Source: Myxococcales bacterium (lineage in GTDB: Bacteria; Myxococcota_A; UBA796; SXON01). From it: 32,163 nt of DNA. This document shows positions 2,523-32,163 of the stretch, piece after piece. The notes under the pieces were generated by a model. It searched no databases, was not told the origin of the DNA, and was given only the letters and a program-made list of their open reading frames with translations. Position 1 is the stretch's first letter. Every line of letters starts with the position of its first letter. Made by a program: the position numbers and the translations under genes. The stretch spans positions 1 to 32,163 of the forward strand of contig SHYV01000024.1 in NCBI GenBank assembly GCA_009692605.1, written 5' to 3'.

Positions 2523-4058
2523 ATGGCCCTTCCGCGCGCGCTGGCAGCCCCGATCCTCACCCGGAGAGGGTTGGAGCGGGGCGCGCCGTTCCCCGGGGGC
2601 CGCCCACGCAAGGTGGCGATGGTCTACCCGTCCCCCTACCGCGTCGGGATGTCCTCGCTCGGCTTCCAGTGGATCTCGTCGGTGCTGGCCGAGCGTGGGT
2701 TTCAGGTGGAACGGGTGTTCTTACCCGAAGACGTCGAGGCCTGGCGCAAGGCGCGCGCCTGCCCGGTGTCGGAAGAGACGCTCACGCCGCTGAGCGAGTT
2801 CCCGATCCTCTGCGTCAGCCTCGCCTACGAGCTTGAGCTGGTCGGGCTCATCGAACTGCTCCGGCTGGCGGGGATCCCTCCGCTGCGGCGCGACCGGCGT
2901 CGGCATAGGTCTGGCGGTCACCCGACGGTGCTGCTCGGCGGCCCGCTCACGTTTTCAAACGCCTTGCCGGCGGCGCCGTTTGTGGATGGCATGATCCTCG
3001 GGGAGGCCGAGGACGTCGTTGCAGACGCCATCGACGGCTTCTTCGCGGACGGCCACCTTGGGGGGCTCGCGGCCCTTCCTGGGGGGTACGTGCCGGACGT
3101 CCACGGCGAGACCCTTCCGCCCGTTGCTCGTGCCGACGACACGCTGCTGCCTGCGCGGTCGCGGATCTGGACGCCCGAGACTGAGCTCCACGACATGTTC
3201 CTCATCGAGGGCGAGCGGGGCTGCCACCGGAGCTGCACCTTCTGCGTGATGCGGCGGGACACCAAGCCCGAGCCCGTGACCGGCCGGCTCGATCGTGGGG
3301 GCATGCGGCTGATCACGCCGGACCGACTGCTAGAGCTCATCCCGGCGGAGGCACCACGGGTCGGGCTGGTCGGCGCTGCGATCTCCGACCACCCGCAGCT
3401 GGTCGGCCTGCTTGAGGCGTTGCTCGATGCCGGAAAGGGCATCGGCATCTCGTCGCTGAGAGGCGATCGCGTCGCGCTCAAGCCCGACATTCCTCGGCTG
3501 CTCCGCCTTGGGGGGTACAAGACGCTCACCGTGGCGAGTGACGCGGCGAGTCAGCGCCTGCGCCGGACGTTGTCGAAAGGGACCACAGAAGCTCAACTCC
3601 TGGCGTGCGCGGAGGCTGCCCGCGAGCACAAGTACCGCCTGCTGAAGGTCTACATGATGCTCGGCGTGCCGGACGAGCAGGACGAGGACATCGAGGAGCT
3701 GATCACGTTCACGCGGCGGCTGGCCGCGATCCACCCGGTCGCGCTGGGGATCGCGCCCTTCGTCCCAAAGCGGAACACGCCGCTGGACGGCGCGCCGTTC
3801 GCGGGCATCGCGGTGGTGGACAAGCGGCTCGACCGGGTCCGCGCGGGGCTGAAGGGGGTCCGCGCCGAGGTGCGGCCGACGTCGGCGCGGTGGGCGTGGG
3901 TGGAGCACCAGCTGGCGCAGGCCGGGTGGGAGGGCGGCGAGGCCTGCCTGCGGGCTACCGAGGCGGGCGGTGCGTTCGCGGACTGGAAGCGGGAGTTCGG
4001 GCGGGAGGGGTTCCCGGCGCCGTGGAGGGTCGTCTCCGATGCCGCCGACCGAGCGTGA
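2523..4058 (+). CDS. B12-binding-type radical SAM protein
   Basis: A 511-residue radical SAM enzyme. The cluster-binding motif is Cys234-x3-Cys238-x2-Cys241 within the run ERGCHRSCTFCVM. It should hold the [4Fe-4S] cluster that cleaves S-adenosylmethionine. The first 200 residues have the Rossmann-like layout of a cobalamin-binding domain (VAMVYPSPYRVGMSSLGFQWI, later PTVLLGGPLTF and GEAEDVV). I do not see the DxHxxG cobalamin-ligand motif, so any cofactor may bind base-off without His, or not at all. The later segment FVPKRNTPLDGAPF is typical of the uncharacterised family that includes TIGR03960-like proteins. The substrate is unknown. The last 104 bases overlap the end of the gene on the other strand. 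It lies 24 bases after the upstream gene. Confidence 0.88.
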   Translation: MALPRALAAPILTRRGLERGAPFPGGRPRKVAMVYPSPYRVGMSSLGFQWISSVLAERGFQVERVFLPEDVEAWRKARACPVSEETLTPLSEFPILCVSLAYELELVGLIELLRLAGIPPLRRDRRRHRSGGHPTVLLGGPLTFSNALPAAPFVDGMILGEAEDVVADAIDGFFADGHLGGLAALPGGYVPDVHGETLPPVARADDTLLPARSRIWTPETELHDMFLIEGERGCHRSCTFCVMRRDTKPEPVTGRLDRGGMRLITPDRLLELIPAEAPRVGLVGAAISDHPQLVGLLEALLDAGKGIGISSLRGDRVALKPDIPRLLRLGGYKTLTVASDAASQRLRRTLSKGTTEAQLLACAEAAREHKYRLLKVYMMLGVPDEQDEDIEELITFTRRLAAIHPVALGIAPFVPKRNTPLDGAPFAGIAVVDKRLDRVRAGLKGVRAEVRPTSARWAWVEHQLAQAGWEGGEACLRATEAGGAFADWKREFGREGFPAPWRVVSDAADRA

Positions 4059-4503
4059 GGGCCGCTAGCAGGGTGATCCCCGAAAGACTCGGGGCGGCCG
4101 AAGGGGTCGCGCAGCCGGTCTCTCCGTCGGGCGTGGCCTCGCGATCGGGCACATAGAACGCCACCTCATCGGGAGCGGACTCGAGGGTCCCGTCGTCCAC
4201 CACGAGCTGGAACCGATATGCGCCGGCCTCTGGGATGGTGAATGAGGGCTGCGAGGTCGGGCCGTCGATGAGCTCGACGCGGGCGCCGTAGATCTGTGTC
4301 CAGATGTAGCTGAGGTGCTCGCCATCTACGTCGCTCGATCCAGTCCCGTTCAGCACGACGGTGTCCCCGGGGTAGGCGAGCACGCCAAGACCGGCGTCGG
4401 CGACGGGGGCGGTGCCCGCAGCGTAGAGGGGGGGCGACAGGAGGGTCAAGGAGAGTAGGATCAAGGAGAGCATCGCCCGGCGGTTAATTCGATTCGAAGC
4501 CAC
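3955..4503 (-). CDS. Secreted PKD/K319-like domain protein with MYXO-CTERM-like tail
   Basis: A 182-residue surface protein. A GTG start gives an n-region with Arg residues and a signal peptide, with cleavage likely after YAA near residue 29. Residues 32-120 form one immunoglobulin-like PKD/K319 (REJ-type) domain. Its signatures are APVADAG, LNGTGSSDVDG, LSYIWTQ and YRFQLVVDDG. Then come a single Cys131, a hydrophobic segment at 140-152 and RRHRRR at 153-158. This Cys, helix and Arg-cluster order resembles the MYXO-CTERM sorting signal, though the match is loose. Unlike typical signals it continues for 24 more Pro/Arg-rich residues. That tail and the Arg cluster lie entirely inside the convergent overlap with the radical SAM gene. 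A start at the internal ATG (residue 11) is possible. It diverges from the PspA-like gene. Confidence 0.72.
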   Translation of the reverse strand: MASNRINRRAMLSLILLSLTLLSPPLYAAGTAPVADAGLGVLAYPGDTVVLNGTGSSDVDGEHLSYIWTQIYGARVELIDGPTSQPSFTIPEAGAYRFQLVVDDGTLESAPDEVAFYVPDREATPDGETGCATPSAAPSLSGITLLAALTLGRRHRRRPSTAPGTPPARTPASSPRTHRPPR

Positions 4504-25460: not shown

Positions 25461-26113
25461 CCGCTGTCGGCCGGCTCGCCGTCGGGCTCACCTGCATAGC
25501 GCTCTGGATCCGCCTTGGCGGGCCAGCTGCCACGGGCCTGCTCCAGCAAGCGAGTAGGGAGCGTGCGGGCCCCCCCGCGGTCGCCGACGTCCGCGCCAGG
25601 CTGGCCCTGCTCCCCAACGACGCGCGGTCGACCCCCACGGTTGGGCTGCTCCTCGCCGCGCTCCACGACCACGACGCCACTGACGAGGCGGAGGGTCAGT
25701 GGAGCCGGACCATCGCCGCTGCGCTCAGCGCAGAGCAGCGGGCCCTCGCTTGCGATCTCGCCGACCTCGACGCTCCGACGCCTCCACCGCCCTTCGAGGC
25801 CCCATCGCTCGACGGCGATCTGGTGGGGCTCGTTGAGGCGTTGATGGCCACCTACGGCTACGCCGAGGTGCCGCCGTCGGGAGCGCCGAGCAAGGACCTG
25901 TGGCCGGGCACTGACCGACGCACCCGGGCGCGCGGCATCCTCGCGCTGGTTCACCGGCGCGACTTTGATGACCGTACGGCGCACGTCATCCTGGCGGTCA
26001 GCCTCACCTTTCTGGACACCCAGCTGGATCGCGCGTCCAACCTCGCGCAGGTCGCCAAGCTCCTGCCGATCGCGATGGGCGAGACCCGCGCCAGGGGACC
26101 CCTGACAAGATGA
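25457..26113 (+). CDS. Hypothetical small protein, middle gene of the coupled operon
   Basis: Not recognised. The 218 residues begin with a weakly hydrophobic stretch (VGRLAVGLTCIALWIRLGGPAATGLL) that could be an uncleaved membrane anchor or signal. The rest is mostly helical with an acidic, Pro-rich centre (LADLDAPTPPPPFEAPSLDGD). A 4-base GTGA overlap joins it to the gene before, and an ATGA overlap to the gene after. Its product is therefore probably made in step with two polytopic envelope proteins and may work with them in the periplasm or at the membrane. Confidence 0.75.
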   Translation: MTAVGRLAVGLTCIALWIRLGGPAATGLLQQASRERAGPPAVADVRARLALLPNDARSTPTVGLLLAALHDHDATDEAEGQWSRTIAAALSAEQRALACDLADLDAPTPPPPFEAPSLDGDLVGLVEALMATYGYAEVPPSGAPSKDLWPGTDRRTRARGILALVHRRDFDDRTAHVILAVSLTFLDTQLDRASNLAQVAKLLPIAMGETRARGPLTR

Positions 26114-28305
26114 GCCGTCGACGCAACAGGCGGCCGGTCCTCCCACGAGGGTCGTGGCGCCCGGCCGCGCTCGCTCTGGCGATGGTGCTGCTGGGGGCGA
26201 GCGTCTGCACGGCCGGAGCACCGTGGATCGCGAGCCGTCTGGGGAACCCCGTGGCGCTGGACGCAGGACGCTGGACCCTGCTCGTTCCGGGCCGCAAGGA
26301 GGGCATCGCCAGCAGCGCGGCCGTCGGGGGTAGCGGCGTCTTGGACGGGCGGCTCGTGCTGATCACCCGCAGCCTCGGGCGCGCAGACATCCTCGTGCCG
26401 CACGGTGAACCCATTGTGGGCGGTCTGGACGTGGAGCTGGGTGCCGACAGCGGCACGCTGCTGGTGAACGTGCGCCGCTCCACCGGAGACGTGGTCCGGG
26501 CGCTGGAGCTCGGCCCATCGGGCTGGCGCACCGGGCCGGGGGACGCGTGGCACGCCAACGCAGGCCCAGCCCCGATTGCGGTTCGCTTCGGGGAGAGCGG
26601 CATGATCGTGGACGGCGTGCCGGGCGGCGGGGGCCAGCGCGTACCCGTCGGTCAAGTCGAGCTGTCCTCGGGATCGGGAACGGCGACGGTCGTCGCCATC
26701 CGGCTGCTCAGCCCGGACGGCGAGGTGGTGCTGGAGGACCGTTTTGGCTGGCCGACTCCCAGCGCCAGGGTGCGCGCGCTGTGCGGGCTGGCCGGGGGCC
26801 TGCTCGGGGCTGCGTGTGCGCTGCTGGTCCGGGCCGGTCTCGGAGGCGTGCTCGAATGTGCGGGTTTACTCGTGCCGCCGTTGCTGGTGCTGGCCACCGG
26901 CTACCCGGCCTGGCAAGGATGGACAGAGCGACTGTACCTGACCGCAGCGTCCCCATCGGATCTGCGCAGGTTCTTCTTCGCCGTCGCTTTTCTCCCCCTG
27001 TTTGGCGCGGCGATGGTGGCGTCCCGCGCGCTGGCCGCGGGCAGTCCGGCGCACACCCCCTTTCCGACGGGGCGGCGAGCGACCGCGGCCGCGTGTGTGG
27101 CCTGCGCTTTGCTCTGCGTGGTGGCGTCGCGGGACCTCCACGGCCTGCAGTGGGCGGCGGTTGTGCCCGGCTTTGCTTTTGCGGCGTGGCCGCTTTGGAC
27201 CGCCCGGCAGACCGGCCAGCCGTTGGCCATGCTGCGAGACCTCCCCGCGTTCCTCGCGCTGGCGTTGGGTGGTTGGGGCTTCGGGCTGCTCCCCGCGGCG
27301 CTGTGGCGGTTCACCTGCCTGTTCGCCGACGCGCCGGCGATGGTGCGCGCAGGCGGACGCGCAGAGGCTCGGGCAGGGACCCAGGCGTTCGGCGTCACCA
27401 CGATCGCCACGCTCGTCGGGATCGAGATCGCGGTTCGGGCGAGCTTTGTTGGTGTCGCCTGGGACCCCGCCCTGCTGGCCGGCAACGCGCTTGACGCTGC
27501 CGACCAGCCGCACGCCGCGTTCAAGCCGTTCTGGAGCGGCAGTTGCCCAACGGCCGGCGGAGGCGGCGGAGAAGCGTCGGCCTCGACGATCTACACCTTC
27601 GGGGGCTCATCCGCTGGAGGAGCCTACCAATTCCGCAATGAGCCGGAGGCTTTCTTTCCAGCCCGACTGCATGCGCTTCTTTGCGCCCAGCGGACGCCGG
27701 GCAGCAGCATCGTCTCCCACAATTTCGGGGAGAGCGGGCGCGACAGTTTTGACGCAGCCAACGCGGTGGACACGCTCTTCGCGCAGCACCCGCCAGCGAT
27801 CTCCATCGTCTACCTCGGCGTGAACGACCTCTTGACCGCCGACCACCCGCTCTCCCGCCGGGAGATGGCCGAACGGCGGGCTGCGATGGGAGCTGCCGCC
27901 GAGACGCTCAGCGGAATCAGCTCCTCGATCCGGGTGATCACCGGGCTCTCACTGCTCACGCGGACGCCCGAGGTCGCCCGCCTCGTCGTCGCGGTGCCCC
28001 TCGCGGACGCGGAGGTCAATCTCCGACGCATCATCGCGTCCACCACGGCGCTGGGCGGACAGGTCCTGCTCGTTCCCGAGTACGCGGCGGCGAACGTAGC
28101 GGGCACGCTGCGCCCCTATTTCGCGATGGAGGAGCGGCTGGCCGGCGAGCTGCCCGGCACTCGATACGTCGACCTCTACGCCGCCCTGGAGCCCGCCGGC
28201 GGGGCCACCTTGCTGGCGGACCGGAACCACCTGACCCGCGAGGGCTGCGTCAAGGTCGCAGAGACGCTGGCGCCGATGGCTGCGGCGCTGCTCGGGTCGC
28301 CGTAA
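26110..28305 (+). CDS. Polytopic membrane protein with C-terminal SGNH hydrolase domain
   Basis: A 731-residue protein. An Arg-rich N-terminus and membrane helix lead to a beta-rich extracytoplasmic domain of about 180 residues. Some six to seven membrane segments follow (about 230-470), then an SGNH hydrolase domain. The catalytic blocks are complete: GGSSAGG with Ser500, NFGESGRDS, YLGVNDLL (GxND), and Asp704-x2-His707 in DRNHLT. SGNH domains act as esterases or acyltransferases, and fusion to membrane helices suggests removal or transfer of acyl groups on a surface glycan. The arrangement differs from the known acyltransferase-3 plus SGNH fusions, because I see no acyltransferase-3 motifs in the membrane part. 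The ATG overlaps the preceding stop. Its SGNH part is a distant relative of the pseudogene near 13 kb. Confidence 0.84.
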   Translation: MSRRRNRRPVLPRGSWRPAALALAMVLLGASVCTAGAPWIASRLGNPVALDAGRWTLLVPGRKEGIASSAAVGGSGVLDGRLVLITRSLGRADILVPHGEPIVGGLDVELGADSGTLLVNVRRSTGDVVRALELGPSGWRTGPGDAWHANAGPAPIAVRFGESGMIVDGVPGGGGQRVPVGQVELSSGSGTATVVAIRLLSPDGEVVLEDRFGWPTPSARVRALCGLAGGLLGAACALLVRAGLGGVLECAGLLVPPLLVLATGYPAWQGWTERLYLTAASPSDLRRFFFAVAFLPLFGAAMVASRALAAGSPAHTPFPTGRRATAAACVACALLCVVASRDLHGLQWAAVVPGFAFAAWPLWTARQTGQPLAMLRDLPAFLALALGGWGFGLLPAALWRFTCLFADAPAMVRAGGRAEARAGTQAFGVTTIATLVGIEIAVRASFVGVAWDPALLAGNALDAADQPHAAFKPFWSGSCPTAGGGGGEASASTIYTFGGSSAGGAYQFRNEPEAFFPARLHALLCAQRTPGSSIVSHNFGESGRDSFDAANAVDTLFAQHPPAISIVYLGVNDLLTADHPLSRREMAERRAAMGAAAETLSGISSSIRVITGLSLLTRTPEVARLVVAVPLADAEVNLRRIIASTTALGGQVLLVPEYAAANVAGTLRPYFAMEERLAGELPGTRYVDLYAALEPAGGATLLADRNHLTREGCVKVAETLAPMAAALLGSP

Positions 28306-28378: not shown

Positions 28379-29350
28379 ATGCCCGAGCTCGAGTCCGAGT
28401 TGCAGCACGCGGCCGTACAACTTCGCGCCGTGCGCGCCGAGGTAGCAAAAGTCATCGTCGGCCAGAAGTACATGGTGGAGCGCCTGCTCGTCGCGCTGCT
28501 CGCTGACGGTCACGTGCTGCTGGAGGGCGTGCCCGGTTTGGCCAAGACCACCGCCGTCAAGGCGCTGGCGGGCGCCATGCAGGCGCGCTTTTCACGGGTG
28601 CAGTTCACGCCCGATCTCCTGCCCGCCGACGTGCTGGGAGGCCAGGTCTACAACCCGCGTGAGGGCTCGTTCACGGTGCGCAAGGGGCCGATCTTCGCCA
28701 ACCTGCTGCTCGCCGACGAGATCAACCGCGCCCCCGCGAAGGTCCAGTCGGCCCTGCTTGAGGCGATGCAGGAGCGTCAGGTGACGCTGGCGGACGAGAC
28801 CTTTCCGCTGCCGCTGCCCTTTCTCGTGCTCGCCACGCAGAATCCGATCGAGCAGGAAGGCACCTACCCGCTCCCCGAGGCGCAAGTCGACCGCTTCCTG
28901 ATGAAGCTGGTCGTCGGCTACCCGTCGCGGGACGAGGAGCGTGAGATCCTCTTCCGCGCGACCCGGCCACCCGAGCCGCCCAACGCCGTGTTGAGCCCGG
29001 ACGCGCTGTCCCGGATGCAGCAGCTCTGCGGCCAGATCACCCTGAAGCCCGTGCTGGCCGACTACATCGTCTCACTCGTGCATACGACACGTCAGGCGGG
29101 CAGCATCTCGCCGCAGATGGCGCGGTACATACAGTACGGCGCTTCGCCCCGGGCCACGCTCGCGCTCGCCTCCTGCGCCCGAGCCTGGGCGATGCTGGAC
29201 GGTCGGGACTTTGCTACGCCGGATGACGTCAAGGACATCGCTCCGGACGTACTGCGACACCGCATCACGCTCGCCTACGAGGCCGAGGCCGACGGGGTCA
29301 CAGCGGACATGGTGGTCAAGGAGATTCTGGCGAAGGTGAAGACACCGTGA
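28379..29350 (+). CDS. MoxR-family AAA+ ATPase
   Basis: A 323-residue MoxR ATPase. The Walker A motif GVPGLAKT is at residues 50-57, and Walker B is LLLADEIN with Asp113-Glu114. Other family segments are GGQVYNPREGSFTVRKGPIF, QNPIEQEGTYPLPEAQVDRF (sensor 1 region) and SPRATLALA. MoxR proteins act as chaperones for assembling membrane or von Willebrand factor A complexes, usually together with DUF58 and VWA genes. None follows here, since the next gene is on the other strand. GGAG lies before the ATG. A gap of 73 bases separates it from the SGNH gene, so it may share that transcript. The last 35 bases overlap the opposite gene. Confidence 0.95.
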   Translation: MPELESELQHAAVQLRAVRAEVAKVIVGQKYMVERLLVALLADGHVLLEGVPGLAKTTAVKALAGAMQARFSRVQFTPDLLPADVLGGQVYNPREGSFTVRKGPIFANLLLADEINRAPAKVQSALLEAMQERQVTLADETFPLPLPFLVLATQNPIEQEGTYPLPEAQVDRFLMKLVVGYPSRDEEREILFRATRPPEPPNAVLSPDALSRMQQLCGQITLKPVLADYIVSLVHTTRQAGSISPQMARYIQYGASPRATLALASCARAWAMLDGRDFATPDDVKDIAPDVLRHRITLAYEAEADGVTADMVVKEILAKVKTP

Positions 29351-30269
29351 CGTGACCGGGGGCGGCTGTCGCGAGGACCTGCTCCCCCTCCCGCCAGATC
29401 AGCCACCCGGCGCCGAGCGATGGCCAGCGTTGGTCGCCCGGACGATCCACCACGGTGCCGTCCGAGCAGTGGATGTCGATCCCTGCAGGCGTCCCGAACG
29501 CGCGGCGGTCCTCCCAGCACGACAGGCTGCCGTCCTCCGCGAGCGCGAGACCGGCTTCGAATCCGGTGAACGCCAAGAATCGACGCTCCGCCCCGGTGTG
29601 GACGTCGAGCTTCACCACCTCGTCTCCGTCGACCCACCAAAGCGAGCTCCCGCCCCCGCCCACCCCGTGCTGATCACCACGGCCCCCGCCGACCACCGCG
29701 GGCGCTCTCATCGGCGCGACGTCCCCCTGAGCCACCTCCGTGCGGACCAGCCACACGTCCCGTTCGGCCTCGCCCCCCAGACCTCGCTCACTCCATGCGA
29801 CCCACCCGACCCCGACGGCCACCGACTCCCCGGGTAGGGGACGGGCATCCCAGCGCGGCCAAACGTGGCGAGAAAGGTCGATGAGATCGACGTGCGTCTC
29901 GTACGGCACGGCCGCCCTCCGGGTCCCGCCATCGTAGGTGACCGTGGCTGGGGCCACCCCGTCGTGGGGGACCATCACCGCCTCTGCGCCGTCGAACCCG
30001 CCCCGCGCCGCGACCGGCAAGACCCAGCCGCCCGCCGGTCGTCCCGTTGCCCAGAGCCAGCCGTCCCCGAGCGACGGGGAGAGCACCGGGGCCGTCAGGG
30101 TCACCACCCGTCCGGTGACCAGAGAGACCGCCACATTGACCCGATCATCCCCTACGCAGCCGACCACCCACTCCCCGGCGAGCGCGGGGTAGCGGTCATC
30201 AGCGCAGCGGCGAGCCTGCAGTACCGGCACCGGCCGGACCGCGACCTGATCCACGTAGGGAGCCGGCAA
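29316..30269 (-). CDS. Predicted beta-propeller protein, last gene of the PKD operon
   Basis: A 317-residue beta-rich protein. Its repeating pattern is a Pro and small residues, then G-x-W and a short strand: YPALAGEWVVGCV, SPSLGDGWLWATG, GESVAVGVGWVAWSE, WPSLGAGWLIWRE. This is how TolB-like or related beta-propeller blades look, so I predict a propeller that binds a protein or carbohydrate. No clear signal peptide is visible. The TTG start at 30269 was chosen because AGG lies just before it, 11 bases after the stop of the PKD lipoprotein gene, which suits an operon. A later start is possible. Its end overlaps moxR by 35 bases on the opposite strand. Confidence 0.68.
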   Translation of the reverse strand: MPAPYVDQVAVRPVPVLQARRCADDRYPALAGEWVVGCVGDDRVNVAVSLVTGRVVTLTAPVLSPSLGDGWLWATGRPAGGWVLPVAARGGFDGAEAVMVPHDGVAPATVTYDGGTRRAAVPYETHVDLIDLSRHVWPRWDARPLPGESVAVGVGWVAWSERGLGGEAERDVWLVRTEVAQGDVAPMRAPAVVGGGRGDQHGVGGGGSSLWWVDGDEVVKLDVHTGAERRFLAFTGFEAGLALAEDGSLSCWEDRRAFGTPAGIDIHCSDGTVVDRPGDQRWPSLGAGWLIWREGEQVLATAAPGHVTVSSPSPESP

Positions 30270-30280
30270 GCGGGCCTAAG

Positions 30281-31684
30281 TCAGCGCGAAGACGTGTCTT
30301 CTGTGCCGCAGCACGTGGCCGTGAACTTCACGGTGTCCGTGGAGACCGCGCCGGTGCAATCGGTGACGGAGAGCTTGAACGTCACGCTGGTGTCTTCACA
30401 GGCACCCGGCTCGCTCGGCTCGATCTTCTCAAGGGTGACCGAGGTGGTCAGCGAGGTCGCGTCGGCGATCGTCGCTACGCCGCTCTCAAGCGTCCAGACG
30501 AGGCTGATGGGGTCGCCATCCGGGTCGGAGACGCTGGCATCGGAGCCGAGGGCCACGACCTTGTCGCTGCACTCGTCACAGTCGTAGACGTAGCCGCTGG
30601 GCTCGCAGGTGGCAGAGCCGGCGTCCACAGCGTGATCCACGCCAGCGTTCACCACGGGGCGGGTGTTGACCGTACGCTCGGCCGCGACCACCGTCACGGT
30701 GTCCGGAACGGACCAGTTCGTGCCGTCCTTCACCGCGCAGGAGAAGACATAGCTACCAGCAATGTCAGGGTAGAACGTCGGGTTTGCGGCGCCCTGATCC
30801 GACAAGGTGGTGTTGTCCGTGTTCGACCCGGCCGGGTTGCTCTGCAGCGACCAGAAGTAGCTCAGCGGGTCACCGTCCGGATCGCTCGAACCCAAACAAT
30901 TCAGCGTCAACGTCGTACAGTCCTGCGCGGCCATCTGGTCCGGACCGGCGTTGGCGGTCGGCGGGCTGTCGTCTGCCGTGCCGGTGACCGACATCTCGTC
31001 CGCATTGCTGGACGCCAACCCGTTGTTGACGACGAGCGAGAGGATGTACGTCCCCTTCGCGTCGACGCCGAGCGTCGGGGAAACTGCGGTCGGGTCAGTG
31101 ACCGCCGTTACGGTGGAGTTTGTCGGCTTGCCGACGATCGTCCAGACGTAAGTCAGGGCCCGACCCACGGGGTCGTAGCTCCCCGTGCCGCTCAGGGCGG
31201 CGCTGCTACCCACCGGGACGGACTGATCGGCCCCCGCGTTGGCGACGGGGATGGACTCCGGGTCAGCCGCGGTGACGATCACATAGTCGGGCGAGGAGGT
31301 CGCGCCAGACGGATCGGTGACCACCAGCGAAACGACGTAGGTGCCGACCTTGTCTGGCTGGAACGTCGTTGTGTCTGCAGTGGTGGTGTGGTTGCGTGAG
31401 AACGGCGCTTCGCGGTCCTGAATCGCGGAGCCGGGCGGGACGTGGTCGAAGGTCCAGCCATACGTCAACGCGTCGCCGTCCGCGTCGATCGAGCCGGATC
31501 CGTTGAGCGTGATGGTGAGATCGGCAGGCTGGGTCTGGTCGGAGCCGGCGTTGGCGGTCGGCGCCGTATTCCCGCGGTCGACGACACCGGGCGCGGAGTC
31601 TGCCCCCTTGTCCTGGTTGCAGCCGGAGGCACAGAGCATCCCGAACGGCAGCAGGGCGAGGGCAGAGTAGTGAGAAGTGCGCAT
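30281..31684 (-). CDS. Lipoprotein with four PKD/K319-like domains
   Basis: A 467-residue surface lipoprotein. A hydrophobic leader ends in CASGC with Cys22 as the anchor. Four tandem immunoglobulin-like domains follow, each opening like PTANAGSDQ, PVANAGADQ, PTANAGPDQ and PVVNAGVDH. Each then has a D-x-D-G-D or similar turn and a strand such as LTYGWTF. Such repeats act in adhesion or carbohydrate binding outside the cell. Domain four contains an insertion Cys-x8-Cys-x2-Cys (bases 30569-30607) plus later cysteines, suggesting disulfides; domain three also has extra Cys. AAGG of the ribosome site overlaps the stop of the upstream gene, so the two are translated in sequence. It lacks a visible enzymatic domain. 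Confidence 0.88.
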   Translation of the reverse strand: MRTSHYSALALLPFGMLCASGCNQDKGADSAPGVVDRGNTAPTANAGSDQTQPADLTITLNGSGSIDADGDALTYGWTFDHVPPGSAIQDREAPFSRNHTTTADTTTFQPDKVGTYVVSLVVTDPSGATSSPDYVIVTAADPESIPVANAGADQSVPVGSSAALSGTGSYDPVGRALTYVWTIVGKPTNSTVTAVTDPTAVSPTLGVDAKGTYILSLVVNNGLASSNADEMSVTGTADDSPPTANAGPDQMAAQDCTTLTLNCLGSSDPDGDPLSYFWSLQSNPAGSNTDNTTLSDQGAANPTFYPDIAGSYVFSCAVKDGTNWSVPDTVTVVAAERTVNTRPVVNAGVDHAVDAGSATCEPSGYVYDCDECSDKVVALGSDASVSDPDGDPISLVWTLESGVATIADATSLTTSVTLEKIEPSEPGACEDTSVTFKLSVTDCTGAVSTDTVKFTATCCGTEDTSSR

Positions 31685-31696
31685 CGTCGGTTCGCC

Positions 31697-32163
31697 TTAG
31701 GGTGAGTAGGTACCGGTACAGGTGTAGGTGACAGTGACCGAATCGCTGGCGGAGTCGGCGCAGTCGCTGACCGACAGGCCAACGGTCCAGGTTTTGGTCT
31801 CGGCTACGTTTCGGGTGGCCGGGAACGAAGGCGTGATGACGCGCGTGCTGGCGCTGTTGGGGCTCTCGATCGTCAGACCGCCGGTGGACTCGGTCCACTT
31901 GAACTGGAGATCGTCGCCGTCTACAGGGTCGTCGGACGCGGTGCCGTCCAGCGTGACGTCATCGGAAGGACAGTCCTCACACGCGAAGGTGTAGGACGCC
32001 GTGGTGCACTCGGGCTCGTGGCTGATCGTCTCGTCTTCGCCGGCGTTGGCGATCGGCATCGCGTTCTCCTCCACGTCGTGGAAGGTGAGGACCACAACGT
32101 CGGGGGGCGAGACCTGCGTGCCGTCATTCACCTGCAGCGCGAAGGTATATACGCCTGGGACGT
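31697..32163 (-). CDS. PKD-domain protein, C-terminal part (runs off the window)
   Basis: Only the last 155 residues are present, because the reading frame continues past the window end. The fragment begins with the end of one PKD-like domain (PGVYTFALQVNDGTQ), followed by a complete one from PIANAGEDETI to the C-terminus. The complete domain carries Cys-x8-Cys-x2-Cys (bases 31970-32008) with aromatic residues at the same places as in domain four of the next gene, plus two matching C-terminal cysteines. It ends TYTCTGTYSP with no anchor sequence. The stop lies 12 bases before the next gene's start. It is probably another surface protein of the same family, perhaps with many repeats upstream. 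Confidence 0.85.
   Translation of the reverse strand, partial: VPGVYTFALQVNDGTQVSPPDVVVLTFHDVEENAMPIANAGEDETISHEPECTTASYTFACEDCPSDDVTLDGTASDDPVDGDDLQFKWTESTGGLTIESPNSASTRVITPSFPATRNVAETKTWTVGLSVSDCADSASDSVTVTYTCTGTYSP

Follow-up and report, generated by a model that had tools for sequence, protein, structure and literature searches.

The closest described relatives of the domains reported here are ordinary PKD domains. The families K319L-like PKD (PF22352) and PKD_4 (PF18911), the structures of KIAA0319L, the AAV receptor (6ihb, 6nz0), and also 2yrl have the same fold and the same sequence core. PKD domains are, to our knowledge, usually described without disulfides, and a search of open-licence papers found no description of cysteine-braced PKD domains. 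Two other systems are comparable in the placement of their domains. The type IX C-terminal domains (CTDs) of Bacteroidota, compared here by description only, are Ig-like and occupy the C-terminal end of proteins not related to one another. MYXO-CTERM tags, which are said to be universal among Myxococcota (PMC11980579), share with the present domains the C-terminal position, an invariant cysteine and the phylum; the corresponding model, TIGR03901, detects tags in 81 of the 84 relatives searched, which makes Myxococcota the most probable phylum of these genomes.

The window, the whole stretch of 32,163 nucleotides analysed, is an entire contig from a Myxococcales bacterium. It carries on its minus strand two neighbouring PKD genes, B (upstream) and A (downstream), each ending in a cysteine-rich PKD domain (Cys-PKD), followed by a gene for a propeller-like protein. 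Gene B is open at its 5' side and truncated by the contig end, so that only its last 154 aa are visible; its full-length homologues are mostly lipoproteins of about 457–500 aa with four PKD-like domains. The features of the locus are as follows, C1 to C5 denoting the conserved cysteines of the terminal domain.

31697–32161, minus strand: gene B, C-terminal 154 aa only, 5'-open reading frame (PF22352, E 3.3e-10)
about 31712–32065, minus strand: terminal Cys-PKD domain of B, the visible content of this gene together with the end of a third PKD domain
31970–32008, minus strand: CX8CX2C of B, CTTASYTFACEDC (C1, C2, C3)
31718–31762, minus strand: C4 to C5 of B, with C4 in SVSDC (31760–31762, start of the F-G turn) and C5 in TYTC (31718–31720, end of strand G)
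30281–31684, minus strand: gene A, lipoprotein of 467 aa with four PKD domains (PF22352, E 1.4e-31, 4 stretches)
31619–31684, minus strand: lipoprotein signal peptide of A, MRTSHYSALALLPFGMLCASGC, with lipobox LCASGC and lipobox cysteine Cys22, as read from the sequence
30668–30970, minus strand: penultimate PKD domain of A (D3), three cysteines, of which C256 (QDC, 30917–30919) is the conserved sixth cysteine
30896–30898 and 30737–30739, minus strand: C263/C316 pair in D3 of A (LDC, SC)
30284–30667, minus strand: terminal Cys-PKD domain of A (seven cysteines) with a short tail; mean pLDDT of the D3–D4 model 92.0
30569–30607, minus strand: CX8CX2C of A, CEPSGYVYDCDEC (C1, C2, C3)
30308–30400, minus strand: C-terminal cysteines of A, namely the extra cysteine of GAC (30398–30400), C4 (30356–30358), and C5 with the extra second cysteine of TCC (30308–30313)
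29316–30269, minus strand: gene for the propeller-like protein (about 317 aa), third of the set, TTG start uncertain

The three genes are closely packed, with 12 bases between the stop of B and the start of A, and 11 between the stop of A and the propeller gene. Both PKD proteins score well above the PF22352 cut-off of 27 bits (108.8 bits for A, 40.3 for B), which places them among PKD proteins by sequence. AlphaFold2 models reach a mean pLDDT of 94.3 (terminal domain of B) and 92.0 (final two domains of A). The best Foldseek matches of the B model are the PKD domains of KIAA0319L and KIAA1837 (E 1.2e-4 and 1.5e-4, TMt 0.62–0.69); model and matches alike indicate an Ig-like sandwich resembling the solved PKD domains. 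The cysteine domain is thus a variant of the known PKD fold and not a new fold. It differs from the solved domains in its N-terminal part: no matched solved chain covers profile positions 1–33, where C1–C3 lie, and the listed PDB matches start at position 34 or later. In the models, the Cys-PKD domain is also longer than its solved counterparts; it carries an A'-B hairpin, and its F-G hairpin is long. A match of the window genes to the myxosortase-dependent M36 peptidase model (NF038112) was rejected, having reached 199 bits against a cut-off of 1500 through its PKD part only.

The original prediction drew attention to a CX8CX2C motif, shared by the two genes, whose positions 6 and 8 are aromatic, and to a DC...TC pair at the end of each domain. 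Both observations are confirmed on the minus strand, the pairs reading SVTDC/TATC and SVSDC/TYTC. When the domains were shuffled at fixed composition, CX8CX2C arose in 1.3% of cases for the downstream and 0.38% for the upstream domain (both together about 5e-5), so the motif pair is not due to chance. The two terminal domains are homologous throughout and 37% identical over their length. Beyond what had been noted, the terminal domain of A has two more cysteines (in GAC and the second of TCC), which B does not have, and the penultimate domain of A bears cysteines as well, whilst its D1 and D2 have none.

The cysteines are conserved far outside this pair, and the refuting condition named in the original prediction, a lack of such conservation, has failed. 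A profile built from the two window domains alone matched 62 of 142 relatives. Most of the genomes that share the genus, family or order gave two matches about 1.4 kb apart, corresponding to the same tandem pair. In a set of 144 distinct homologous domains taken from the collected loci, C1, C2, C3, C4 and C5 are present in 143, 144, 144, 143 and 144 domains, respectively. They account for five of the 12 invariant columns in a 34-member alignment and for five of the ten in a broader 24-member set. The arrangement C1..C2xxC3..C4..C5 in the last domain, by which we propose to define a Cys-PKD subfamily, is present, and the suggestion that the two window domains mark a real PKD subfamily is borne out. 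The motif is identical within the window pair, but CX8CX2C is no more than the most frequent form: across the family the C1–C2 spacing is 8 in 83 domains, 10 in 27, 9 in 17, and otherwise 4, 7, 11 or 12, and a third Cys-PKD copy in the window's own genome (contig G000:C123) reads CX9CX2C. This third copy (L045:4693–5508; domain G000:C123:13651–14004) lies in a frame of 272 aa whose start is apparently out of frame. A relative (L075) has 814 aa, and the 272-aa frame is a broken gene or an assembly error.

It could be argued that these are ordinary PKD domains whose cysteines are shared through a recent duplication of neighbouring genes and carry no structural meaning, since A and B are both adjacent and homologous. 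This is highly improbable: the cysteines are among the few columns left invariant at about 30% identity, and their presence in 143–144 of the 144 domains contradicts it. Furthermore, the downstream-type domains form a group of their own across the order (SH-aLRT 96, with one exception inside the group), from which it follows that the duplication is old.

The position of the domain is as strict as its cysteines. Cys-PKD is the last domain in all 144 carriers and is followed by 0–15 residues, one residue being commonest (58 domains). A lipobox was found in at least 104 of the 144 carriers by a simple rule, which replaced a stricter one that had missed obvious cases; of the remaining 40, most are truncated by the edge of a locus or start in a misplaced frame. 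The lipoboxes of homologues are clearer than that of A (LVLTAC, LMLAAC, ALLTGC, LALVGC). Judged by sequence, nearly all intact carriers are lipoproteins. With a lipoprotein signal at the N-terminus and Cys-PKD as the last domain, the cysteine domain lies at the free end of the chain, opposite the lipid anchor, and is probably displayed on the outside of the outer membrane. Carriers that stand alone, outside the tandem pair, differ in their bodies, which contain MopE repeats, a lamin-tail domain or PKD domains. Several MopE-repeat and lamin-tail proteins (PF11617, PF00932) of the same genomes, in which MopE repeats, some with a lamin-tail domain, replace part of the PKD rod, end in the same module of PKD plus Cys-PKD.

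Such a distribution might be expected of a tag for sorting or export, in which a folded C-terminal domain would be read by some machinery for surface delivery, in the manner of the Ig-like C-terminal domains of the type IX system in Bacteroidota. The domain is always last, occurs once per protein on differing bodies (PKD rods and MopE/LTD proteins), and, within the genomes searched, is restricted to a single class. We nevertheless regard a role as tag as quite unlikely. The carriers already have an N-terminal lipid anchor, the chain ends 0–15 residues after the domain in variable tails with no evident cut site, and about ten copies or fewer per genome were detected in the class, a small number beside the many proteins that usually bear type IX tags. 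The carriers also differ from type IX substrates in their N-terminal lipoprotein signals, and Pfam and NCBIfam scans of the window genes listed no type IX CTD family. In contrast to MYXO-CTERM, Cys-PKD is a folded domain, occurs on proteins lipid-anchored at the N-terminus, and is followed by neither a membrane helix nor a basic tail; at E ≤ 0.1 the window genes gave no TIGR03901 match, and we do not assign them to that family. More speculative, and doubtful at best, is the idea that the braced PKD pair is a class-wide C-terminal tag, comparable with type IX CTDs and MYXO-CTERM though unrelated to them, which an outer-membrane machinery would read for the surface delivery of lipoproteins. Elsewhere in the window (3955–4503, minus strand) a short ORF combines a PKD-like domain with a MYXO-CTERM-like end (19.4 bits against a cut-off of 20) and is similar to the C-terminal region of an M36 peptidase of the myxosortase-dependent type.

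The original prediction described an insertion in one domain. The conserved unit is instead a C-terminal module of two domains, which includes a cysteine of the preceding PKD domain. This sixth cysteine lies in the penultimate domain at the entry to strand B and is present in all 132 carriers that have a PKD domain upstream; in the window it is C256 of gene A, whilst the corresponding site of B lies beyond the contig end. With it, the conserved cysteine totals become even: 6, 8 or 10. The D3–D4 model puts the sixth cysteine in the A'-B loop of D3, and C4 where the F-G turn of the last domain begins. In Ig-like sandwiches the A'-B and F-G loops face each other across a domain joint, and since the cysteine-bearing loop of D3 faces the loop with C4, the model makes an interdomain disulfide likely. 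L091, the one domain in which C4 is missing, is not preceded by a PKD domain. Some carriers (L087, L095, L099 and L193) have MopE repeats in place of the preceding PKD domain and still keep C4; MopE repeats have cysteines of their own, which leaves the partner of C4 in these proteins ambiguous.

Further cysteines come and go in pairs. Both members of the downstream-type extra pair (GAC and the second cysteine of TCC) occur in 39 domains, neither in 105 and a single one in none. The C263/C316-type pair of the penultimate domain in the downstream type, at positions where one would expect an Ig-type B-F disulfide, is complete in 22 carriers and absent from 110, with neither cysteine ever found alone. 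On a poorly resolved tree the extra pair changes two times and the C263/C316 pair five times, always together; these changes are too few for a significant test, and the co-occurrence counts overstate the independence of the cases. The modelled F-G register (strands 196–209 and 214–229) makes GAC and the second cysteine of TCC near cross-strand partners. In a family at class level (f7; L079, L081, L083, L163), the second genes of the pair have an extra hairpin cysteine (CxxCPNC) and a GSC-like cysteine in place of those of GAC and TCC. These may possibly be another solution for the same extra bond.

The inserted hairpin itself can be read in a similar manner. In the predicted models C1 and C2 occupy mirrored positions, 20 and 29 about a turn at 24–25 and 127 and 136 about a turn at 131–132. 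Of the 141 domains in which their spacing can be read, 116 have an even number of residues between them, as a hairpin with a two-residue turn needs. The original prediction had offered disulfide bracing and metal binding as alternatives for this subfamily, and of the two we favour bracing, given the export signals of the carriers, the even totals of conserved cysteines and the gain of extra cysteines in pairs. Were C4 to pair between domains, four conserved cysteines (C1, C2, C3 and C5) would be left, and a CX2C accompanied by two other cysteines nearby in the fold is a frequent layout for a structural zinc or iron site; some solitary carriers, moreover, contain MopE repeats, whose Pfam family takes its name from copper binding. 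A metal site is nonetheless unlikely, as the carriers are lipoproteins with export signals, the compartments reached by exported lipoproteins oxidise thiols, C1 and C2 lie directly opposite one another in the modelled hairpin, and the downstream type gains exactly two cysteines together, as a disulfide would.

Taken as a whole, our preferred reading, to which we give a probability of about 0.62, is that A and B are lipid-anchored rods of four PKD domains with a disulfide-braced, two-domain distal tip and a propeller partner. Each protein would be held by its N-terminal lipid, its PKD domains forming the rod and the last two constituting a single covalently braced module at the free end. A bond from the cysteine in the A'-B loop of the penultimate domain to C4 in the F-G turn would lock the domain joint. 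C1, C2, C3 and C5, gathered where the hairpin that follows strand A meets the end of strand G, would form two more disulfides, either C1–C2 across the hairpin with C3–C5, or C1–C5 with C2–C3. The downstream type would add one more cross-strand bond, from GAC to the second cysteine of TCC. The propeller protein, with its four conserved cysteines, is probably exported and acts together with the two rods. The tip would most likely contact an outside ligand or neighbouring proteins of the operon; a part in adhesion or ligand binding is suggested by its position alone.

The inclusion of a propeller gene in the set, foreseen in the original prediction, holds beyond this contig, the gene belonging to the same conserved cluster as the pair. 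The order B-A-propeller is found in 16 of the 19 order-level loci examined, and the B-A tandem pair occurs also in other families of the class. The propeller protein has no match in Pfam, NCBIfam or PHROGs, and its four cysteines are invariant in 11 aligned sequences. A MoxR-type AAA ATPase gene (28379–29350, plus strand; PF07726, E 1.1e-64) converges on the propeller gene, and a MoxR match beside the trio was seen in two loci of the same genus only. Next to it, at 26110–28305 on the plus strand, lies a gene whose product is GDSL-lipase-like in its C-terminal part (PF13472, slightly below the cut-off); a GDSL-lipase-like protein also stands beside MoxR in one same-genus locus.

For the scan of genome contigs the tighter alignment of downstream-type domains was the query, a mixed one being too divergent; the scan therefore favours the downstream type, and its matches are to be read as at least the numbers found. 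Among 379 genomes of the phylum, strong Cys-PKD matches are confined to the class. Weaker matches in other parts of the phylum (E 1e-7 to 1e-12) were not accepted as members, since nearly all of those in the genomes checked cover only positions of about 31–115, the ordinary PKD core without C1–C3. The domain, its cysteines and the gene pair are kept across most of the class. The titles of the matching records, among the matches listed, point mainly to lake and other aquatic metagenomes. Three records titled Klebsiella pneumoniae (L108, L111 and L116) carry this gene pair and are surely mislabelled metagenome bins.

What is distinctive here is the combination of a cysteine set spanning two domains, a strict C-terminal position and a conserved set of three genes. 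An apparent covalent lock between the two terminal PKD domains, at the free end of anchored rods, would suit a surface role that is mechanically or chemically demanding. The fixed three-gene set, including a propeller family which has no name in Pfam, NCBIfam or PHROGs, offers a small testable system, and one that has been kept across an uncultured class of Myxococcota.
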